22,588 nucleotides of DNA from a virus, in IMG/VR virus record IMGVR_UViG_3300047357_000958, positions 1-22,588 of that record. One strand, given 5' to 3'. Below the pieces are notes generated by a model that had not been told where the DNA came from, searched no databases, and saw only the letters and a program-made list of their open reading frames with translations. A program made the translations under genes and the position numbers. Below are positions 1 through 10,557 of this stretch, piece after piece. Positions within the stretch are counted from its first letter, which is position 1, and every line of letters starts with the position of its first letter.

Positions 1-2792
1 AGCCTGAAGAAGACCAAACAGCAACAGACGGAAAAGATAAACGAGGCGACAACGCAGATAACTCCAAAGGTAGTAAGACTAAAAAATTAGGCGGAGGGTT
101 TTTAAATGGTGCCCTTAAGGCAACTCCAGAGAATACCGTAATTCTTGCTAGTACAGGAGCAACTGCTGGCATTACAATAGACAATATAGAATTAGTCACA
201 GTTTCAGGTGGCCCTAATAGTGTTGTTAATAAAACATGCGAGTTCGAAATAATACAGCCTGGTGCGGCATCGTTTCCAGACATGATTACAAGAGCCCAAA
301 CATATTTAGGTATCCCTACAGAAACAAAGGATTTTCCTATGTTTTTAGAGATATCATTTAAAGGTAGAACAGAGACAGGAGGTGATCCTCAAAAACCTGA
401 TTATGATGACATAGATGGAGGCGGAGAGATAGTAGCAGACATAGTAGGACCATTTATCTATAAACTTGCACTAAAACAATTTAGTATTAACATAGATCAA
501 ACAGGTAGTAGATATCAATTTGATACAGTAATAACAGACGAATATGCATACAGTCCACAACTAAAAGCATTACCAATACTAACAACAACTGTAGGTAGTA
601 CTATAACCGAACACATAAAAGGTCCTACAGGATTAGAAGTGCTTTTAAATGACCAACTGCAATCATCTGCAGATAAGAATGCAACACCAGACATAATAGA
701 ATTTGATTTAAGTGGGTTAGTAGCCGCACAACAAATAGACCCTAAAGAAAAACAAGGAATAGATGATTTTTCAAAAGGCATTAATTTAAGTGCATTTAAT
801 AAAGCAAAAGATACAGTTAATGATATACTAAACACACCTAATCCAGTAGACAGAATTGCCAAACAAGTACGAGGTACAGTAGGTGATCTTAAAAACGAAT
901 CTAAGAAACAATCAGGAATAGCAGAAAATTTAATAATAGATGAAACATTAAGCACAACAGAAACAACCAGTATTCAAAGTGTTCCTGGCTTAGACGAAAT
1001 AGACAAGCCAAATGCCGAAGAATTAGAGCAAATAATTGAAGAAAACAAATCTAGTGGGTTTGTTAAGAAAGTTGATACAGGAAAAATAGAATTAGTTGCA
1101 AAACGAGGCTTAGGTATAAACGAATATTTTGAAATGTTATTGTCTATGAACGATGAGTTCTTTACTAAGATTAGTAAGGTAATAAATCCAGGTGAACCAT
1201 TTGTAAAAGAAGACCAATCTAAAACATCAACATATAAACTATCGATGAATTACGAAGTTGTTGAATTAGAATATAATCCAACAAGAAGGAAATATGTTAA
1301 AAAAATAATCTATAAACCTGTACTTGTAAAAACACAACAAGTTACTGCATTGACATCTGAAGGATTAATTTATAACCCAGAACAAATGGCTAAAGCAGTT
1401 AAAGAAATGCAAATTAAGAAAGCATACCATTATTTGTTTACTGGTAGAAACGACCAAATAGTAAATTTAGATATTAACTATAATAAAGGACTAGACTTTT
1501 TATTACCAGTTGCAGGAGGCATGGTTGGAGATCCTGTGCTTAATACACGACATTCTTCTTCAGTTCCTGTTCCAGCAAGTGAAGATAGTAATGCCATCAA
1601 TGAATTATTTGATAAGGTTGAAAAAGTCAAAGATGCAAAAAAATTATTCGATCTGTTCAAAGGCAAAGATGATATTCTAGGAGGAATAGCAGGCATATTA
1701 GGTTTTGATTCTAACACAGCAAAGAACCTTTTAAACGACATAAATTCTTCTAGTGCAAAAGCATTTGCAGGTATGCTACAAGATAAAGTTACAAGAGAAA
1801 GTATATCTAATTTATTACTTAATAAAAAAGGTCCATCAAATCAATCTGGTACTAACACGGAAAGCGATAATCAAAGAATTGTAGACGGAAGTGAAGATTA
1901 TACTCCTACTCCTAGTGGGTATGTGTATGGTGTTGACCTCCTAGGAGGCTCAAAACATGCTGAAGAATTATTGCAAAAAGAGTTAGCAAAGCGAACTAGC
2001 GAAAACGTAAAAGAAAGCGATGCTGAAAAAGTATCTTCTGGTCCAGTAGCGGCTGGAAAAGAAGGCTATACAAATTCACATGTAATGGGAGCCCCACAAA
2101 AAAGTAATAGAAACTCCTTAATGGCATATTTGTTTCAACAACAGAATTCAGGTAGATTTTTGGTAGACCTTAATATGGTAGTCAGAGGAGACCCGTGGTA
2201 CTTAGGTCAGCCAAATGATAAACTATTTCATACACAAGAACTATCTTTTGGTAATGATGCTAATTCTAAAAGTAGCGATGCTGACGGTATTACTACATCA
2301 AGAAAAGATAATTTTTTATTATTAGAAATTAATACTCCTAGATATTTTGATTTAAATGTAAAAGATGAAGACAGTAATACTGGAAAATGGTATAGTGACG
2401 GAGAAGAAGGAACGGCATATTTCTTCTCAGGTGTTTATAGAATATTTACTGCAACATGTAGATTTCAAAATGGTGTGTTTACTGTTGATGTTGCAGGAGC
2501 AAAAGAAACAGCAATCGATATAAGTCAATTAAAACCTATGGTAGAGTATGATATGACTCTAGAAGAAAAAGACTTCCTAAGAGATAGACAGTCGGCATTC
2601 CAGTCTGAAACAGACTCTGATAAAAATAAATCACCTGCATGGATAAATGGTTACTTTACAGGAGATAGAATTGTAGCAGGTATACGAGAAGGAGACCCAG
2701 TAACACTACAAGATTTACTTGAGAGAGGGATAATTAATAGTGACGAAGCCGCGGCATACGAGTCATGGCAAAGGGATAAAGGCAGTAATTAA
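1..2792 (+). CDS. Large virion structural protein, baseplate-hub-like (5' end outside window)
   Basis: The frame is open from base 3, so the gene begins before the window; the ATG at 282 is internal and not a credible start. 929 residues are visible, ending at TAA 2790-2792. The early visible part (nt about 140-620) looks like a compact beta-rich domain, reading as a strand before FEIIQPG, then MITRAQTYLG and FPMFLEISFKG, as in hub or tail proteins of large contractile-tailed phages. A second recognisable block is YHYLFTGRNDQIVNLDINYN (nt 1426-1485), a pattern I associate with myophage tail-hub proteins. A third structured block follows NSGRFLVDLNMVVRGDPWYLGQ (about 2146-2211). The stretches between blocks are polar, Lys/Asp/Ser-rich and probably flexible. 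It lies 2 nt upstream of the gp5-like spike, which suggests a hub role comparable to T4 gp27. That equivalence is inference; a plain virion structural protein is the safe name. Confidence 0.75.
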   Translation, partial: PEEDQTATDGKDKRGDNADNSKGSKTKKLGGGFLNGALKATPENTVILASTGATAGITIDNIELVTVSGGPNSVVNKTCEFEIIQPGAASFPDMITRAQTYLGIPTETKDFPMFLEISFKGRTETGGDPQKPDYDDIDGGGEIVADIVGPFIYKLALKQFSINIDQTGSRYQFDTVITDEYAYSPQLKALPILTTTVGSTITEHIKGPTGLEVLLNDQLQSSADKNATPDIIEFDLSGLVAAQQIDPKEKQGIDDFSKGINLSAFNKAKDTVNDILNTPNPVDRIAKQVRGTVGDLKNESKKQSGIAENLIIDETLSTTETTSIQSVPGLDEIDKPNAEELEQIIEENKSSGFVKKVDTGKIELVAKRGLGINEYFEMLLSMNDEFFTKISKVINPGEPFVKEDQSKTSTYKLSMNYEVVELEYNPTRRKYVKKIIYKPVLVKTQQVTALTSEGLIYNPEQMAKAVKEMQIKKAYHYLFTGRNDQIVNLDINYNKGLDFLLPVAGGMVGDPVLNTRHSSSVPVPASEDSNAINELFDKVEKVKDAKKLFDLFKGKDDILGGIAGILGFDSNTAKNLLNDINSSSAKAFAGMLQDKVTRESISNLLLNKKGPSNQSGTNTESDNQRIVDGSEDYTPTPSGYVYGVDLLGGSKHAEELLQKELAKRTSENVKESDAEKVSSGPVAAGKEGYTNSHVMGAPQKSNRNSLMAYLFQQQNSGRFLVDLNMVVRGDPWYLGQPNDKLFHTQELSFGNDANSKSSDADGITTSRKDNFLLLEINTPRYFDLNVKDEDSNTGKWYSDGEEGTAYFFSGVYRIFTATCRFQNGVFTVDVAGAKETAIDISQLKPMVEYDMTLEEKDFLRDRQSAFQSETDSDKNKSPAWINGYFTGDRIVAGIREGDPVTLQDLLERGIINSDEAAAYESWQRDKGSN

Positions 2793-2794
2793 GT

Positions 2795-4990
2795 ATGGGT
2801 ATGGACGGTAAAAATGACGGAATGGTTAATGACAATATCCGTTCAAGTAAAAATTTAACAGAAAAAGCGGAAGGCCTATCTAATATACCGCCTGGTATAT
2901 ATTCTGGTGTTGTTAATGGAAATTCATCTAATAGAAGAGACGGCACAATAAATGTTTTTCTCGATAACTTTCATAAGTCCCCGGCAAACAAAGCAGGTAT
3001 AGGCGGCATCCAGGCCAGGTATGCTGGTCCATTTTACGGCAACATGAATATTAATAAAAATATAGATGATCCTACCGAATCTATAAAACCTATGACTAGT
3101 TACGGTATGTGGACACAGGCTCCTGAACCAGGCAACAGAGTACTAGTTGCTGTAGTAGATGGTAAGATAAAATCAGCATTTATTGTAGCCTATTATAATC
3201 TAACAGAAAAAAATAAAATGATACCAGGTAATGCTGGAGACCTAACTTATCAGGCTGATAGTTACTTTCTACCAACTGTAGAAAAACAACCAAAAGATCA
3301 AGGCGTAACAAATAATAAAGAATTATATCCAGTTAATAACCCTCTATCAAAGACCATAGTAAATCAAGGCTTAGCATTAGATCTAGTACGAGGCATAAGT
3401 TCATCTAGTGCTAGAAGAGAAGATGCTAGTAACATATGGGGTGTTTTAACTAAAGGCAGAAAAAATATAGATGGAAAAATCACACATGCTGGCCATAGTA
3501 TTGTAATGGATGATGGTGATGGTGATGCAAATAGTAAAAACATAAGAATTAGAACTGGTGGCGGAAATCAAATATTATTAGATGATGATACAGGTGTAAT
3601 ATACCTCATAAACAAATCAGGTAAAGCATGGGTTGAATTAGGAAATGATGGCTCTATACATTTCTTTGCTGATAAAGATATAAACTTTAGAGCAAAAAAT
3701 AATTTTAATCTAAGAGCAGATAAAAATATTAATATTGAATCAGGACAAGACATTAACATTATGGCGGCTGGTGATAACGATGCAGACGGTTATAGAGGTA
3801 GAGGCGGAATAGCAGGTGTACTAGGATTAGACAGCACTGGTTTTGGCCATATAAAATTACACTCAAAAGGTTCAACAAGTTTGCTATCAGAAAAAAGTGC
3901 TCAATTTACTGCACAGGCAGGTGATATAGAATTAAGTTCTAGTGGTAGGATAATGAATGACACAGGAAAATTTGATGTTGTTGCAAATAATATCTTTAAT
4001 CCTGCACTAGGAGGAATAAGTTTAGCAACAACAGGTTCTGCTTCAATTGACAGTTTACTTGGCTCAAGTATGAAAAGTGTTGCTATCACAGAGGTTAGAG
4101 GTGCTACGGTACAGTTAAACAGTTTACCAGCAGTTCCTCCACCGCCACCGTTGCCACCAAAGGCACAAGCGGCTACACCTCTACAATTTTCTAAAAAACA
4201 AGATCAAAGTAGAAAAGCACCTGAGTATAATGATTCAGGAGAAGGGCCAATTTTACCTACAGGAGGTAAACGTCCTGAGAAAGGTGATAAAATAGAAACT
4301 ATAGTTAGTCAACTTATAACAGCAGAGCCATGGAGCGGTCATGTAAATTATGATCCTGCAGGTGATAAAGATGATAAAAACAAAAAAGAAGATGTATCAG
4401 TTGATAAAGAATTACGACCCGGACAAATAGACCCTACTGATAGTGTACCTGCAGATGTAGACACTCCAGAAGGAACAAAATTAGGTACAAAATTTTCAGA
4501 TACAGTAGGTGATATAAAAGATAAAGTCTCAGGCGTAACTGATGCTTTATCAGATGCTAGAGGCGTATATGAAGATGTAATAGGAAATCCAATTTCAGCA
4601 TTTTTATTATCCGGTGAGTTAAACCTTAATGGTCTAGAAGCAGGTAAAAAACTTGCATCGTTAATGGGTATTACATTGCCTAAACTTCCTTCATTACCAT
4701 TCCAAGCACAAATTGACCAACTACAAGATAAAGTTAAACAATTAGTAAACTTTGATAAACTTAAAGGTATGTTTAGTTTAGACTTTTTAAATAATTTGCC
4801 GCTGGATATTAAAGATAAAATGGCACAATTAGATCTTGGTAATATAGAAAATGCTATTTCAGGCAGTTTAGAAAAGCAGTTTGGAGTTGGTGGCGATGCA
4901 GTAGATAACTTTAAAAAATCTGTAGGTGCTAACATAGGAGCATTTAACGATGCAAAAGCAAAATTTAATCAGATAACAGGAAAAGGATAA
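2795..4990 (+). CDS. gp5: gp5-like baseplate central spike (OB fold plus triple beta-helix, no lysozyme domain)
   Basis: 731 aa. It forms the needle under the tail tube in T4-like phages. Residues about 32-135 read as the OB-fold domain (IPPGIYSGVV through GNRVLVAVVDGKIKSAFIVAYY). Residues 234-327 carry the gp5/VgrG signature GHSIVMDD, then IRIRTGGGNQILLDD, then eight-residue repeats of the form KDINFRAK / NNFNLRAD / KNINIESG / QDINIMAA, the hallmark of the intertwined beta-helix. A second beta-repeat stretch runs to about 440. Residues about 444-456 are proline-rich (VPPPPPLPP), followed by about 280 residues of polar linker and amphipathic helices. T4 gp5 (575 aa) has a lysozyme domain between the OB fold and the helix; here about 100 residues of unremarkable sequence sit there, and a lysozyme-like domain is encoded by the next gene. 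The start ATG lies 2 nt after the previous stop; AAAGG about 12 nt upstream is a plausible ribosome site. ATG 2801 is an alternative start. Confidence 0.88.
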   Translation: MGMDGKNDGMVNDNIRSSKNLTEKAEGLSNIPPGIYSGVVNGNSSNRRDGTINVFLDNFHKSPANKAGIGGIQARYAGPFYGNMNINKNIDDPTESIKPMTSYGMWTQAPEPGNRVLVAVVDGKIKSAFIVAYYNLTEKNKMIPGNAGDLTYQADSYFLPTVEKQPKDQGVTNNKELYPVNNPLSKTIVNQGLALDLVRGISSSSARREDASNIWGVLTKGRKNIDGKITHAGHSIVMDDGDGDANSKNIRIRTGGGNQILLDDDTGVIYLINKSGKAWVELGNDGSIHFFADKDINFRAKNNFNLRADKNINIESGQDINIMAAGDNDADGYRGRGGIAGVLGLDSTGFGHIKLHSKGSTSLLSEKSAQFTAQAGDIELSSSGRIMNDTGKFDVVANNIFNPALGGISLATTGSASIDSLLGSSMKSVAITEVRGATVQLNSLPAVPPPPPLPPKAQAATPLQFSKKQDQSRKAPEYNDSGEGPILPTGGKRPEKGDKIETIVSQLITAEPWSGHVNYDPAGDKDDKNKKEDVSVDKELRPGQIDPTDSVPADVDTPEGTKLGTKFSDTVGDIKDKVSGVTDALSDARGVYEDVIGNPISAFLLSGELNLNGLEAGKKLASLMGITLPKLPSLPFQAQIDQLQDKVKQLVNFDKLKGMFSLDFLNNLPLDIKDKMAQLDLGNIENAISGSLEKQFGVGGDAVDNFKKSVGANIGAFNDAKAKFNQITGKG
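4978..4986 (+). promoter_or_regulatory. Ribosome binding site for the lysozyme-like gene
   Basis: AGGAAAAGG lies just before the ATG at 4990. The AGGA part is 8 nt from the start codon, a normal Shine-Dalgarno spacing. The start overlaps the gp5 stop as TAATG, so translation is probably coupled. Confidence 0.6.
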
Positions 4991-5622
4991 TGGCAGACAT
5001 TACAGATACATATTTACAAGTATTGATGGATTTAGATAAAGCAGGGTATACCATGGACGTTGATGGTGGAAGTATTATTTTTAGAAACAAGAAAACAGGA
5101 ATGACGTATGTCGATGTAAATAACGGAGTAGGACCTAAAGCAGAAGAACTAATTTTTAATGCAGATTTAACATTCATAAGTGAGCAAGTAAAGAATCTTG
5201 TAAAAGTACCATTAAACGAATATCAATTTACTGCACTTACAAGTTTTGCACATCACATAGGAATAGAGAATTTTTCAAATAGCGGTGTTCTAGAATCTCT
5301 TAATAACGGCAGGTACGAAGATGTTGTTAGCAAAATGCAAAGATGGAGAACTGGTACTAAAGGACCAAACACTAGACCTACAGTCAGAGAGGATTATGTA
5401 CAAAGACGTCAGTTTGAAGCAGAGTTATTTTCTACACCTGGTTGGTTAGACATACAAGCAGAGTTGGATCAATATATAAACATGCATCAAGGAACCACAT
5501 TATCCTTCAAGCAACAACGTGAAATTCTTATAGGAATAAAAGATAGGGCATATAGAAAAGCAGGTATATTTAGAACTGGAAGCCAACCAGTGCTACCGGA
5601 CCAAAAAGATTCTATCGACTAA
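4990..5622 (+). CDS. GH24 (phage lysozyme)-like protein lacking the visible catalytic motif; baseplate-associated
   Basis: 210 aa, beginning with ATG in a 1-nt overlap (TAATG) with gp5. Residues 51-150 match the C-terminal helical lobe of GH24 phage lysozymes: AEELIFNADL, VKVPLNEYQFTALTSFAHHIG, a helix with LESLNNGRYEDVVSKMQRW, and REDYVQRRQFEAELF, which parallels the family pattern RR-x-E-x-x-LF. The N-terminal 50 residues do not show the family catalytic segment (Glu, then about 9 residues to Asp/Cys, then Thr before GYGH). Instead there is a short beta-like stretch (GYTMDVDGGSIIFRNKKTG). Residues 151-210 are a helical tail not typical of the family. The protein is therefore probably non-catalytic, or uses a different active site. 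In T4 this domain is internal to gp5; here it is a separate gene next to a gp5 lacking it, so it may dock on the spike. The fold call is firm; the inactivity is inference from sequence reading. Confidence 0.75.
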   Translation: MADITDTYLQVLMDLDKAGYTMDVDGGSIIFRNKKTGMTYVDVNNGVGPKAEELIFNADLTFISEQVKNLVKVPLNEYQFTALTSFAHHIGIENFSNSGVLESLNNGRYEDVVSKMQRWRTGTKGPNTRPTVREDYVQRRQFEAELFSTPGWLDIQAELDQYINMHQGTTLSFKQQREILIGIKDRAYRKAGIFRTGSQPVLPDQKDSID

Positions 5623-5818
5623 GACTCTTAACTTCTTTTTTTAGATCAGCATTTTCAACTAATAATCTATATTTTTGCTCTTGCTCATCGGCAACTGCTT
5701 TTTCTAATAATTCTATATGAGATTTAAGATAGTTGTTTTCTTTATTTTTTTCAACTAGTAAGCATCTGAGTTCTTCTTCTAGTGTGTTATTAAGGTCTTT
5801 TGTAGTTAAATTTTGCAT
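5612..5818 (-). CDS. Small coiled-coil protein on the minus strand (68 aa)
   Basis: I do not recognise a family. The ATG is at 5818-5816 and TAG at 5614-5612, overlapping the end of the lysozyme-like gene tail to tail by 11 bp. From about residue 12 to 66 the protein is heptad-like and highly charged (LEEELRCLLVEKNKEN, IELLEKAVADEQEQ, LLVENADLKKEVKSL), which predicts a parallel leucine-zipper-type helix. It has no signal peptide or membrane segment. Three things make it a gene and not a shadow: it fills a region with no plus-strand gene, its codon style (TTA, AGA, GAA, AAA) matches the neighbours, and a sigma70-type promoter sits about 45-50 nt upstream. GGT within TGGTAAAAT is only a weak ribosome site. 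It is the sole gene opposing the structural cluster. Its role is unknown; a small regulator or a protein-protein adaptor are possibilities. Confidence 0.75.
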   Translation of the reverse strand: MQNLTTKDLNNTLEEELRCLLVEKNKENNYLKSHIELLEKAVADEQEQKYRLLVENADLKKEVKSLSR

Positions 5819-5869
5819 ATTTTACCATTTTGAATGTAGTACTATTTAAACAATTTTTATGTAATCTAC

Positions 5870-5898
5870 ATTATACAGTACATTTTTGATTAAGTCAA
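5870..5898 (-). promoter_or_regulatory. sigma70-type promoter for the minus-strand coiled-coil gene
   Basis: On the minus strand, TTGACT (5898-5893) is followed by exactly 17 nt and then TATAAT (5875-5870). This is one mismatch from the ideal -35 box, a perfect -10 box and the ideal spacer. The predicted transcript start is near 5863, giving an untranslated leader of about 45 nt before the ATG at 5818. Phage T4 early genes use this class of promoter and late genes do not, so early expression is a reasonable inference. Confidence 0.72.
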
Positions 5899-5927
5899 GT
5901 CTTATTAAAACATCTTTTAATACTTTT

Positions 5928-5935
5928 GATAAATA
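5928..5935 (+). promoter_or_regulatory. Candidate T4-type late promoter upstream of gp25
   Basis: GATAAATA differs from the T4 late -10 box TATAAATA only at the first base, and keeps the ATAAATA core reported for marine T4-like phages. The box ends 5 nt before the gp25 ATG. With T4 geometry, transcription would start about at the A of the ATG, which would make the message nearly leaderless. In an AT-rich genome a single 8-mer can occur by chance. Confidence 0.5.
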
Positions 5936-5940
5936 CAAGT

Positions 5941-6309
5941 ATGGCAATTTTGTTTAAAGGATTCAGTACAGCAGATAAAATTAGGGCACCTTATACTCTA
6001 GTAGATTCTGAATTAGTGAAGAGAGATTTATTAAATCAATTGTATACAAAAAAGGGCGAAAGAGTTATGCGTCCTGAGTACGGTACAATAATTTATGATC
6101 TATTAATGGATCCTAATATTCCAGAATTAGAAGAAATAGTAAAAGAAGATATTGAAAGAATAATAGATGGTGAGCCTAGAGCAACACTTGATAATATTAA
6201 TATATTAATTGGTGACCATTCAATAAGAGCAGAAGTTACAATTAGTTATGTTATGTTAAGTAGCAGTGAAACACTTTTTGTAGAATACATATCTCAGAGT
6301 GGAGTTTAG
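5941..6309 (+). CDS. gp25: Baseplate wedge protein gp25
   Basis: 122 aa, close to the 132 aa of T4 gp25. This is the gpW/gp25 family of small wedge proteins that help join wedges to the hub and seed the sheath. Residues 34-51 carry the family signature KKGERVMRPEYGTIIYDLL, preceded by a predicted helix (ELVKRDLLNQLY). Residues 62-80 form another helix (ELEEIVKEDIERIIDGEPR) and the C-terminal half alternates beta strands (INILIGDHSIRAEVTISYVM). I chose the ATG at 5941 over an in-frame TTG at 5926: MAILFKGFST is a sensible N-terminus, and the TTG has no ribosome site and overlaps the late box. There is no clear Shine-Dalgarno before the ATG, which fits the possible leaderless start. It lies 3 nt upstream of gp6, the usual partner in marine T4-like phages. 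Confidence 0.92.
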   Translation: MAILFKGFSTADKIRAPYTLVDSELVKRDLLNQLYTKKGERVMRPEYGTIIYDLLMDPNIPELEEIVKEDIERIIDGEPRATLDNINILIGDHSIRAEVTISYVMLSSSETLFVEYISQSGV

Positions 6310-6312
6310 TAA

Positions 6313-9300
6313 ATGGCTATTGTAAATAGACAAAATAATTTATTTGCGGCAGAAGACTGGAAAGTTGCCTATAAGGCTTACAGTCAAGTAGATTTTCAAG
6401 CATATGATTTTGACTCTATTAAGACTTCTCTTGTAAATTATATAAAAACAAACTTTCCTGAAAACTTTAATGACTATATTGAAAGTTCTGAATTTATTGC
6501 AATTATAGAATTACTTTCGTTTTTATCACAAAGTATTGCATTCAGAATGGATATCAATACTAGAGAAAACTTTTTAGAAACAGCAGAAAGAAGAGACTCA
6601 GTATTTAAACTAGCAAGAATGTTAGGATACAATCCTAAGAGAAATGTTGCGGCTAGTGGACTTATGAAACTAGTATCCGTAAAAACTTCTGAACCATTAA
6701 CAGATAGCCAAAATAACAGTTTAAATAATACAACAGTATTTTGGGACGATGCCAACAATCCAGACAGTTACGAACAATTTATAACAATTCTAAATGCTGG
6801 TATGAGTTCTACTAATAGATTTACTGCACCTATTAAAACAGGTTCGGTTAGCGGTGTGCCAACAGAAATGTATCAAATTAATACAACTATAGGTTCACCT
6901 ATTGCATACAGTTTTACAATTAATAGCAATGGCACTAGTAGACCATATGAAATAGTTAACGGTAATTTTAGTGACAACGGATATTTTTATGAAGTATCAC
7001 CTGATCCTCTAGCACCGTTTAATTTCTTTTATAGGAATGATGGTTTAGGCTTAGCAAGTGACAATACTGGATTTTTCTTAATGTTCAAACAAGGAACATT
7101 ACAATTTCAAGATTTTAATTTTACATCTCCAACAGAAAATAGGATACAAGATATAGCAGTAAACGGTATAAATGAAACTGATGTATTTGTTCAAGAAGTA
7201 TCCACAGGTGGCACGGTGTTAAATCAATGGGCAAAGATACCTAACACAGTAGGGCAAACACTAAACTATAATAGTAAAAGTTTAAACACAAGAAATTTAT
7301 ATGCTATTGAGAATTTAAACAACGATGGTGTTAGATTAAAATTCCCTGATGGCAATTTTGGTAACATTCCTACTGGTATTTACAGAGCCTGGTATAGAAC
7401 AAGTGCAGGAGACAGATTTAGTATACAACCTGATGATGCAAGAAATCTTTCTATATCAGTTCCATATACAAATGGTGCAGGAGACGATTATTTATTAACA
7501 CTTGGTTTTGAATTAAAATCTAGTGTAAACAACAGTTTACCTGCAGAATCAATAGAAAACATTAAAGCAAGAGCACCTCAAACATTCTATACTCAAAATA
7601 GAATGGTATCAGCACAGGATTACAATGTATTTCCTTTAAGTCAAAGTTCTAATATTTTAAAGTTAAGAGCAACAAATAAAACACATGCAGGGCATAGCAG
7701 ATATATAGATATTAATGATCCTACTGGAACTTTCCAAAGTGTAAAGACTTATACAGAAGATGGTGTTATTGCACAAAAAGATGCATTTTTAAATAAATCA
7801 TTAATTGTAAATGAAAACAATTCTGCATCTACAGTGGTAAGAAATATTTTACCAACATATTTTAAAGAACAAAATTTAAACAACTTTATGTATAATAAAG
7901 TTAGACAAACTTATCAAGCAATTAGACCTGCTGTTTTAAATACAACAGGACTAGTTATAAGTTGGAAACCTTTGCCTGTTAAAGCAAAAAATAAAACAGG
8001 TTACATGCTACAAACAGTTTACGATACTGATGGCAGTGGTGCAATAGATAGATCAGATGTTGTAGTAAACAACAATCCAAGTTTTTCAGGTCTACAAGTT
8101 TTCCAGGAGAATAACTTTGTAAAATTTGTTAATCCAGATATACCTTCCGAATATAAATGGGTAAGAATAATTGACGTACAAAATAATGGTGCGTTAGCAA
8201 GTGGTCTTAGTACTAGTGTAGGTCCGTGGTCATTGAGTGCAGACGTAAACGAAGATTGGAGAGCATACGAAGTTATTACAACACTTAGAAAAACATTTAC
8301 ACCAAGTGAAGAACAAGCATTAGTTTCTCAGATAAATGATAAGAAAAGTTTTGGATTAGGATTTAACATAGAAACAAACGAATTTTATATAATTACAAAT
8401 TCAAACTTACCTGCATTAGATAGAGATACAGATAATACTACAACTAGTACATATGGTATACAAAATATAGGTAATGCAGAAGATAACAGTTGGTTGCTCA
8501 AATTTGATTACACTCCGATCGATAACACTAGTTGGAGATATAATATTACAATTAGAGGCATAGAATATATTGCTGAAAGTAAAAATAATTTAAGATTTTA
8601 TAATGTAAATAGTGTAAAAGTTACAGATAGTACAACAAAAGCAACAAGAGATAAAATTGTCTTAAACACATTAAATTATAAACCATCTAATGATGAAGAG
8701 TTTTGGTGGAGCGACAAACCGAATGTTGTAACTAAGGTTGCAGACGGTATAGGTGATTCGTGGCAGAGTCAAGAAAATAATGCATTTTACGAACCTAATG
8801 GCGTCAACCCAATGATACCAATAAAATCTAGAGATGCTAAATGGAGTGATATTAGAATTAAATGGCAAAGTAACTTTGGTATACTCTCAGACGATATTTC
8901 AAATCCAGGCGACTTAGCATCAATTATTTCTAAAGACAGATTTGTCGATGAAGCAATAGTAGAACTTAACACATTTTTTGATGACCCACAAGGAAACGCA
9001 TTAACACCTAATGTTACAATTTCAAACTTTAGTGGTGCAGTATCTAAGTTACCAATAAATTTCCAAATAGAATTTTCAAATACTACATTTGGAACAAATA
9101 TTTTAACTGGTAGTGAAGGCAATATTACATATAAACAATTAAATCCAGATACAAACATTGTAGAAATATATCATGGTAATAATTTACAAGTTGGCGGAAA
9201 TGTTTATTCATATGGTGCCACTGGTGCTGTATACAATGCTTCAGCAATTGGTAGTGTAGTATTAGTAGATGCGAATGCTACTGCTGGAACAGGAACAATA

Positions 9301-10557
9301 CAATACAACGACTTAGATGACAATAATCATCTATACGCATCAGATTCTGTAGGTGTTAGTAGAGATAAAATTACTGTAAGTTATCTAAACAGTAGAGAAA
9401 AATTAGAAAACAATATTGAATGGGACATTATAGGCCCATATCAATATGAAGATGGATACACTGATCCTAGTAAAGTAAAAATTGCACCTGTAGACACAGA
9501 CGGTGATTTAGTACCAGATAGACCGCAACAGTATGATGAATTTGTAGGACAAAATGATTTAGTTATATACGAAAAAGTTACAGACTTCGATGGTTACGAA
9601 TACGACAGGCCAGTATCAGGTGGTATAGTAGATTATAGATCAGAAACAACATTAGACACAACTCAATCAGAAACATTGTCAGCAGGAAGTTTTGCAAACC
9701 CAATAGATATTGCTAGTATTAATTGGCTTATTGTAGATACACTTTCAGTTGCAGAACTATTAGAAAATGTTATAGGAAAATATAAAGACATATTAGTATA
9801 TGTTGTAGACGAAAACAATGTTTACAAATGTGCAGAAAGTACTACAACACCAGGTACAATAAGTTTGCTTTTAGTAAATAAAGATTATTTTGTAAGAAAC
9901 GGTAGAGCAGAAACACAAAATACTCTAGAATCAAATCCAGTACCAGTTGTAATGAAATGGGATCATAGAGCACCAAACGATGTAAGAATAGATCCTAGTA
10001 TTAGTAATGTTGTAGAAATGCTTGTATTAACAAATAACTACTACTCACAAATTTTAAAATATACAAATGTAGCAGGAACAGAATTTCCATTAGCACCGAC
10101 AAATGAAGAACTATCAAATGAGTTTTTATCGTTAGATCAATTTAAGAGTGCAAGTGATGTTATTGTTTATAAAAGTGCAGAATTCAAAAGATTGTTTGGA
10201 ACAGATGCTGACACAAGTTTACAAGCAAAATTTAGAATTGTAAAAATACCAGGTTCAAGTTTAAGTGATAATGAGATTAAATCTAGAGTTATACAAACAT
10301 TCAATCAGTATTTTAATATTAATAATTGGGAATTTGGTGAAACTTTTTACTTTACTGAACTAGCAAGTTATGTTCATCAGCAACTAGGTAATACTATAGG
10401 AAGTATAGTAATTTTACCAAAAAATACAGCAGGCAGTTTTGGTGATTTATTCCAAGTAAAATCTGAACCTTACGAGTTGTTTTTAAGTACAGCAACAGTT
10501 AATGACATAGAAATAGTAGAAAAAATTAGTTCACAAACATTAAGGGCTGACAAATAG
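6313..10557 (+). CDS. gp6: Baseplate wedge protein gp6, enlarged (1414 aa)
   Basis: gp6 dimers build the inner ring of the T4 baseplate. Residues about 1-130 show the gp6/baseplate-J-type N-terminal pattern (FPENFNDYIESSEFIAIIE, then IAFRMDINTRENFLETAERR and ARMLGYNPKRN). Residues about 417-450 give another family mark (IKARAPQTFYTQNRMVSAQDYN). The C-terminal end, about 1236-1380, has KFRIVKIPGSSLSDNEIKS and NNWEFGETFYFTELASYVHQ, the conserved gp6 tail. T4 gp6 has 660 residues; the extra length lies mainly between about 480 and 1200. Inside that insert are two acidic loops that look calcium-binding (residues 571-582 and 1061-1069). The start ATG has GGAG 8 nt upstream and lies 3 nt after gp25. 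The stop TAG shares its G with the GTG start of the next gene. No frameshift is seen. Confidence 0.9.
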   Translation: MAIVNRQNNLFAAEDWKVAYKAYSQVDFQAYDFDSIKTSLVNYIKTNFPENFNDYIESSEFIAIIELLSFLSQSIAFRMDINTRENFLETAERRDSVFKLARMLGYNPKRNVAASGLMKLVSVKTSEPLTDSQNNSLNNTTVFWDDANNPDSYEQFITILNAGMSSTNRFTAPIKTGSVSGVPTEMYQINTTIGSPIAYSFTINSNGTSRPYEIVNGNFSDNGYFYEVSPDPLAPFNFFYRNDGLGLASDNTGFFLMFKQGTLQFQDFNFTSPTENRIQDIAVNGINETDVFVQEVSTGGTVLNQWAKIPNTVGQTLNYNSKSLNTRNLYAIENLNNDGVRLKFPDGNFGNIPTGIYRAWYRTSAGDRFSIQPDDARNLSISVPYTNGAGDDYLLTLGFELKSSVNNSLPAESIENIKARAPQTFYTQNRMVSAQDYNVFPLSQSSNILKLRATNKTHAGHSRYIDINDPTGTFQSVKTYTEDGVIAQKDAFLNKSLIVNENNSASTVVRNILPTYFKEQNLNNFMYNKVRQTYQAIRPAVLNTTGLVISWKPLPVKAKNKTGYMLQTVYDTDGSGAIDRSDVVVNNNPSFSGLQVFQENNFVKFVNPDIPSEYKWVRIIDVQNNGALASGLSTSVGPWSLSADVNEDWRAYEVITTLRKTFTPSEEQALVSQINDKKSFGLGFNIETNEFYIITNSNLPALDRDTDNTTTSTYGIQNIGNAEDNSWLLKFDYTPIDNTSWRYNITIRGIEYIAESKNNLRFYNVNSVKVTDSTTKATRDKIVLNTLNYKPSNDEEFWWSDKPNVVTKVADGIGDSWQSQENNAFYEPNGVNPMIPIKSRDAKWSDIRIKWQSNFGILSDDISNPGDLASIISKDRFVDEAIVELNTFFDDPQGNALTPNVTISNFSGAVSKLPINFQIEFSNTTFGTNILTGSEGNITYKQLNPDTNIVEIYHGNNLQVGGNVYSYGATGAVYNASAIGSVVLVDANATAGTGTIQYNDLDDNNHLYASDSVGVSRDKITVSYLNSREKLENNIEWDIIGPYQYEDGYTDPSKVKIAPVDTDGDLVPDRPQQYDEFVGQNDLVIYEKVTDFDGYEYDRPVSGGIVDYRSETTLDTTQSETLSAGSFANPIDIASINWLIVDTLSVAELLENVIGKYKDILVYVVDENNVYKCAESTTTPGTISLLLVNKDYFVRNGRAETQNTLESNPVPVVMKWDHRAPNDVRIDPSISNVVEMLVLTNNYYSQILKYTNVAGTEFPLAPTNEELSNEFLSLDQFKSASDVIVYKSAEFKRLFGTDADTSLQAKFRIVKIPGSSLSDNEIKSRVIQTFNQYFNINNWEFGETFYFTELASYVHQQLGNTIGSIVILPKNTAGSFGDLFQVKSEPYELFLSTATVNDIEIVEKISSQTLRADK
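8023..8058 (+). other. EF-hand/dockerin-like calcium loop in gp6
   Basis: Residues 571-582 read DTDGSGAIDRSD. Asp, Asp, Ser, Gly, Ile and Asp occupy positions 1, 3, 5, 6, 8 and 12, as in dockerin and EF-hand calcium loops. This is visible directly; calcium binding is inference. Confidence 0.55.
9493..9519 (+). other. Thrombospondin-3-like acidic loop in gp6
   Basis: Residues 1061-1069 read DTDGDLVPD, the D-x-D-G-D-x-x-P-D spacing of thrombospondin type 3 and related calcium loops. A second acidic run with DFDGYEYD follows shortly downstream. Confidence 0.5.
10542..10546 (+). promoter_or_regulatory. Ribosome binding site for the giant gene (supports the GTG start)
   Basis: AAGGG lies 10 nt before the GTG at 10557. 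An in-frame TGA at 10548-10550 closes the frame just upstream, and no ATG precedes the conserved-looking N-terminus, so GTG is the only reasonable start. The start overlaps the gp6 stop as TAGTG. Confidence 0.6.

Follow-up and report, generated by a model that had tools for sequence, protein, structure and literature searches.

At the T4 replication origin oriE, the small early genes repEA and repEB lie antisense in late gene 5 and are served by an early-mode promoter (Vaiskunaite et al. 1999, cited in PMC3016281). The cultured phage PA5oct has, in order, gp5, two antisense ORFs of 94 and 80 aa (ORFs 351-352), a TTGACG-17-TATACT promoter, the late promoter TATTTATC on the other strand, and gp25. 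The 80-aa ORF is a homologue of p86 (profile E 2.9e-9; whole-collection tblastn E 2e-9), a family that recurs below, and a p86 homologue is common to 11 related records including Paride. Unrelated antisense genes occupy the slot between gp5 and gp25 in Atu_ph07 and RaK2, and no antisense gene adjoins gp25 in 121Q, Hallingskeid, RAS14, Kyanoviridae HTVC008M, Melnitz-2 or S-CAM4. A literature search found no published transcription map for PA5oct or Paride.

Here we describe this slot in an uncultured marine T4-like virus. The window, by which we mean the whole stretch of DNA analysed, is a complete IMG/VR virus record of 22,588 bp and contains a T4-type baseplate cluster. We propose, with a probability of roughly 0.7, that a 68-aa antisense ORF in this cluster, cc68, encodes an early-expressed coiled-coil protein and is the terminal gene of an early cargo operon set among the late baseplate genes. 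The features of the region are as follows.

282-2792, plus strand: structural gene
2795-4990, plus strand: gp5-like baseplate hub gene (phrog_13211)
4990-5622, plus strand: lysozyme-domain gene (PF00959), convergent with cc68, with an 11-nt 3' overlap
5612-5818, minus strand: cc68, gene for a 68-aa predicted coiled-coil protein, marked by family conservation and purifying selection on the protein
5819-5863, minus strand: predicted 5' leader of cc68, its start placed from the -10 element
5870-5898, minus strand: sigma70-type putative early promoter TTGACT-17-TATAAT, hexamers conserved, spacer divergent
5904-5921, no strand: palindrome ATTAAAA-CATC-TTTTAAT between the divergent promoters, the sole exact match in the window
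5928-5935, plus strand: T4-type late promoter GATAAATA of the gp25-gp6 operon, the sole exact copy in the window
5941-6309, plus strand: gp25 baseplate wedge gene (PF04965, phrog_43)
6313-10557, plus strand: gp6-like wedge gene, in an operon with gp25

The gp6-like wedge protein (6313-10557) has 1414 aa, about twice the length of T4 gp6, and its closest cultured matches are jumbo phages of the PA5oct group, at about 40-42% identity.

The cc68 ORF runs on the minus strand from an ATG at 5818 to a stop at 5612. Shuffling the region 2000 times gave an ORF of at least 68 aa in 27 cases, so this length is uncommon yet possible by chance. Six leucines (17, 31, 38, 52, 59 and 66) share one heptad register, in which position 24 is Lys and position 45 is Glu, and the AlphaFold2 model is a single helix spanning residues 6-67 (pLDDT 94). 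An earlier sequence-only reading of this DNA had called the gene leucine-zipper-like, and these two features bear the description out. One long helix, heptad leucines and invariant polar residues together make it likely that cc68 dimerises as a coiled coil and has a conserved partner. The protein contains 12 K/R against 14 D/E overall and its N-terminus (TLEEELR) is acidic; a bZIP-type DNA-binding protein was considered and rejected, since the zipper has no basic region ahead of it.

The core of the family is nearly invariant (LNNTLEEELRxMLVEKNNE..LEKAVAEEQEQKYRLLVENADLKK). The window copy belongs to it by its core (LNNTLEEELR...EEQEQKYRLLVENADLKK), its antisense orientation, its place as the final gene before the lysozyme/gp5 3' end and its divergence from gp25. 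Family searches found no known family resembling cc68 and a profile search of the PDB returned no significant chain. A protein search of 50,697 cultured phage records gave only chance matches, a DNA search of those records with the 1.3-kb region gave no match, and a profile scan of the bacterial and archaeal genomes in GTDB gave no relative. In sequence terms, cc68 represents a protein family that had not been described before and that is very well conserved.

In IMG/VR, 76 cc68 loci were found by close search, and 217 and 259 by two profile scans; these counts are lower bounds (at least 259 contigs), most of the contigs being fragments and several near-duplicates. Across the cases compared, identity is 62-85%. 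The median identity to the window is 76% for cc68, versus 43% for lysozyme, 37% for gp5 and 58% each for gp25 and gp6. Divergence by codon position is 0.175/0.064/0.366, which indicates that selection acts on the cc68 protein. At every locus examined cc68 is antisense, divergent from gp25 and the last gene before the convergent lysozyme/gp5 3' end.

To avoid bias, an independent scan was keyed on gp25 and not on cc68. Relatives with at least 50% gp25 identity all had an antisense neighbour (24/24), which was cc68 in 20. At 43-50% identity there was such a neighbour in 12 of 15, with cc68 in nine, and below 43% in 3 of 33, with cc68 in none. The sequence-only reading had named as evidence against itself relatives with neither ORF nor promoter; the close relatives are not of that kind. 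Four of the 24 have no detectable cc68, yet keep another antisense gene in the slot, so cc68 is not essential to the antisense arrangement.

The promoter that had been claimed to oppose the structural operon is present (minus strand, -35 TTGACT at 5898-5893, 17-nt spacer, -10 TATAAT at 5875-5870; score 11/12) and is conserved in relatives. The cc68 ATG lies 51 nt past the end of the -10 element and 45 nt past the predicted start near 5863, in agreement with the distance first given. Taken from this one window, the promoter is weak evidence, no more than chance would supply in AT-rich DNA, because sigma70-like sites in 20 kb of the window are as frequent as in shuffles (101 seen, 104 expected) and three others in the same 20 kb also score 11/12. 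Among relatives, the hexamers are kept while the spacer sequence drifts, and the best antisense promoter score in the gp25-based scan was mostly 10-12/12 where an antisense gene was present and mostly 7-9 where it was absent. Conservation thus establishes that the cc68 gene and its promoter are real, though the promoter alone is not beyond chance. No clear Shine-Dalgarno sequence precedes cc68 in the window, where the ribosome-binding site is weak; GAGG-type sites stand ahead of cc68 in loci L030, L038 and L042. The place of the window's 5' leader is taken by cargo genes in most relatives.

These cargo genes, one or two of which precede cc68 in most relatives, encode members of the p86 family (80-100 aa) and an alpha/beta hydrolase. 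The hydrolase gene (about 201 aa, PF00561) is directly upstream of cc68 in most relatives, and usually its stop codon and the start of cc68 are 1 nt apart. A promoter with a 16- or 17-nt spacer precedes it in 29 of 29 distinct slots, and in all of these exactly 6 nt separate the -10 element from the hydrolase start codon (for example at L006:3385), a spacing from which a leaderless hydrolase mRNA is predicted. More distant relatives have the order p86-hydrolase-cc68; others have a phosphorylase-superfamily protein, a TonB-dependent-receptor-like protein (561-665 aa), p86 and cc68, and further ones a longer antisense set that includes a SprT-like protein.

Several of these variants can be described individually. 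The long antisense operon at L197:5893-8419 and L153:227-3216 comprises phosphorylase-like, SGNH-like (by eye), SprT-like, 175-aa, p86 and cc75 genes. At L207:4001-5686 and L224:3676-5661, the TonB-dependent-receptor-like protein (PF07715 Plug, leader-like N-terminus, C-terminal Trp) lies between a phosphorylase-family gene and p86-cc68, and possibly serves superinfection exclusion or nutrient uptake. At L379, a 253-aa antisense ORF with a signal-peptide-like start and the look of an outer-membrane protein begins 85 nt from gp25 and shares the slot with p86. A fold search with the p86 model found nothing.

The slot of the window holds cc68 only, with neither p86 nor hydrolase upstream, and cargo-less relatives are L002-L005, L030, L038, L042, L074 and L154. 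A tree of gp6 puts the hydrolase state basal to the inner clade that holds the window; the state without cargo arises in two or three places, one of which is the window's lineage. The tree indicates that this lineage lost the genes before cc68 and kept cc68 as the last piece of an early-gene island. Since operon contents vary, the hydrolase state is basal and the cargo-less state recurs, cc68 has persisted through gains and losses of its companions.

The late promoter GATAAATA (5928-5935) is back-to-back with the antisense promoter and is conserved at all gp25 sites listed. The palindrome ATTAAAA-N4-TTTTAAT (5904-5921) precedes it by exactly 6 bp in the window, and the composite of palindrome and late promoter is found also at the gp55 site and at a few other late promoters. 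Because the palindrome keeps a constant distance to the late promoter and not to the early -35, it most likely belongs to the former; a role as operator of the early promoter alone was dropped on the same ground, its distance to the early -35 being variable. More generally, the late promoters in this group of viruses come with a palindrome, ATTAAAAC-NN-GTTTTAAT, placed exactly 6 bp before GATAAATA, and we know of no comparable element for T4 late promoters. A search for the late-promoter pattern at one fixed distance from the ATG found little. At every gp25 site listed, the gp25 start codon follows GATAAATA at a distance of 5 nt (window 5928-5943), and T4 spacing predicts a leaderless gp25 late mRNA.

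The longer contigs contain few exact matches to TTGAC(A/T)-16/17-TATAAT, one of which recurs 7-10 kb upstream of the gp25 site. It precedes a gene of 286-289 aa that encodes the late sigma factor gp55 (phrog_12791, E 3e-94); in L286:550-1410 and relatives the sigma70-type promoter driving this gene is perfect and stands back-to-back with a late promoter. Because gp55 is needed before late transcription, we infer that this promoter class, which cc68 shares, is early. With little confidence, we also raise the idea that the slot is an early/late switch. At gp25 and at gp55 alike, the conserved palindrome stands between the late and the early antisense promoter, and a phage factor (the late activator or a cc68 complex) acting there would shut down the early operon while the late one is being switched on.

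In our model, transcription by the sigma70 RNA polymerase of the host would begin near 5863 immediately after infection, yielding a short cc68 mRNA. This would give an all-helical protein of 68 aa, probably dimerising as a coiled coil. The putative early cargo operon, comprising P-early, p86, the alpha/beta hydrolase, cc68 and lineage-specific swaps, is inserted between gp5/lysozyme and gp25; cc68 is its last and most persistent gene, and in the window's lineage every gene before it is gone. Later, gp55-type late polymerase would fire the adjoining GATAAATA in the other direction. Plus-strand read-through of the vsp-gp5-lysozyme operon would cover cc68, so that the late strand probably silences the early one and not the reverse. 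Because polar surface residues are invariant as well as the zipper core, cc68 most likely acts as an adaptor for one strongly conserved partner, belonging either to the host or to the phage early machinery.

Among other explanations, the slot could be an early replication origin of the oriE type, where the early antisense RNA would serve as primer for the leading strand and cc68 would help in initiation. The T4 origin depends on an early promoter and has antisense repEA and repEB in neighbouring gene 5, that is, in the same region and orientation. The slot of the window lacks iterons, no array of clustered 12-nt repeats being present at 5200-6500, and RepEA and RepEB are unlike cc68 by eye; we consider such an origin unlikely.

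Alternatively, cc68 could be a virion or assembly protein, either a baseplate chaperone or a coiled-coil part, encoded on the other strand by happenstance. It always adjoins hub and wedge genes, and coiled coils are common in assembly factors. Its promoter, however, is host-type and not late, and the genes that share its operon encode enzymes, a TonB-dependent-receptor-like protein and further products without a structural signature, which makes a virion role quite improbable.

The sequence-only reading had also suggested that the transcript may be a regulatory antisense RNA; on reading past 5612 it would anneal to lysozyme and gp5 mRNA and delay their translation. No terminator follows the cc68 ORF and none is conserved there among relatives, which would permit this. 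The ORF itself overlaps the lysozyme gene only in the gene's final 11 nt (5612-5622), and the transcript would have to run on for about 620 nt before it enters gp5. Repression of late messages fits poorly with several observations: (i) selection is seen on the cc68 protein and not outside it; (ii) the cc68 stop and the lysozyme gene overlap in some relatives and are up to about 200 nt apart in others; (iii) the presumed targets diverge freely, as the medians for lysozyme and gp5 given above attest; (iv) an early RNA would be made before its late targets exist; and (v) PA5oct has a strong terminator after its first antisense gene, well before gp5. No Rfam family was found in the window, nor conserved RNA or extended complementarity of the kind expected of a cis-acting antisense RNA. 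We regard this mechanism as very improbable. What survives of that reading is early protein expression, which has good if indirect support from the gp55 promoter class and the back-to-back late promoter, and not the antisense-RNA timing device. That a chance ORF adjoins a chance promoter match, which the frequency of such matches in shuffled sequence might suggest, is refuted by codon-level conservation and a fixed position across hundreds of contigs and has virtually no probability.

Returning to cc68 as an early protein, the finding that a lytic phage conserves it more strongly than its baseplate subunits points to a target under constraint, which is a common sign of host-takeover factors. 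The family, and the operon that cc68 closes, extend over hundreds of uncultured marine virus contigs, and their position and the shared p86 gene tie them to cultured phages PA5oct and Paride. As in PA5oct (and Paride, MIJ3, Deifobo and others), the slot lies between gp5 and gp25, the genes have the same orientation and the promoter is back-to-back with TATTTATC or GATAAATA. Unlike the cc68 relatives, PA5oct has neither cc68 nor hydrolase, and carries the strong intrinsic terminator after the first antisense gene. Within the same virus group, the gp55 pair likewise joins a perfect sigma70-type promoter back-to-back with palindrome and GATAAATA, but there the early promoter serves the late sigma gene.

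Like repEA and repEB, cc68 has an early-type promoter, its timing here being inferred, that is oriented against the late gene 5 region, and it has a site in the baseplate region with late transcripts running in the other direction. The T4 genes are nested inside gene 5 and located at an origin, whereas cc68 is intergenic, before gp25, and belongs to a multi-gene cargo operon with no iterons. RepEA and RepEB, of 50 and 45 aa, show no visible similarity to cc68 (by inspection, not by an alignment program). cc68 resembles the oriE genes in layout and is not homologous to them. Early genes within T4-type late clusters emerge as a recurrent and evolvable layout and not a T4 oddity: the layout is of a kind already known from T4, and the protein family is new.
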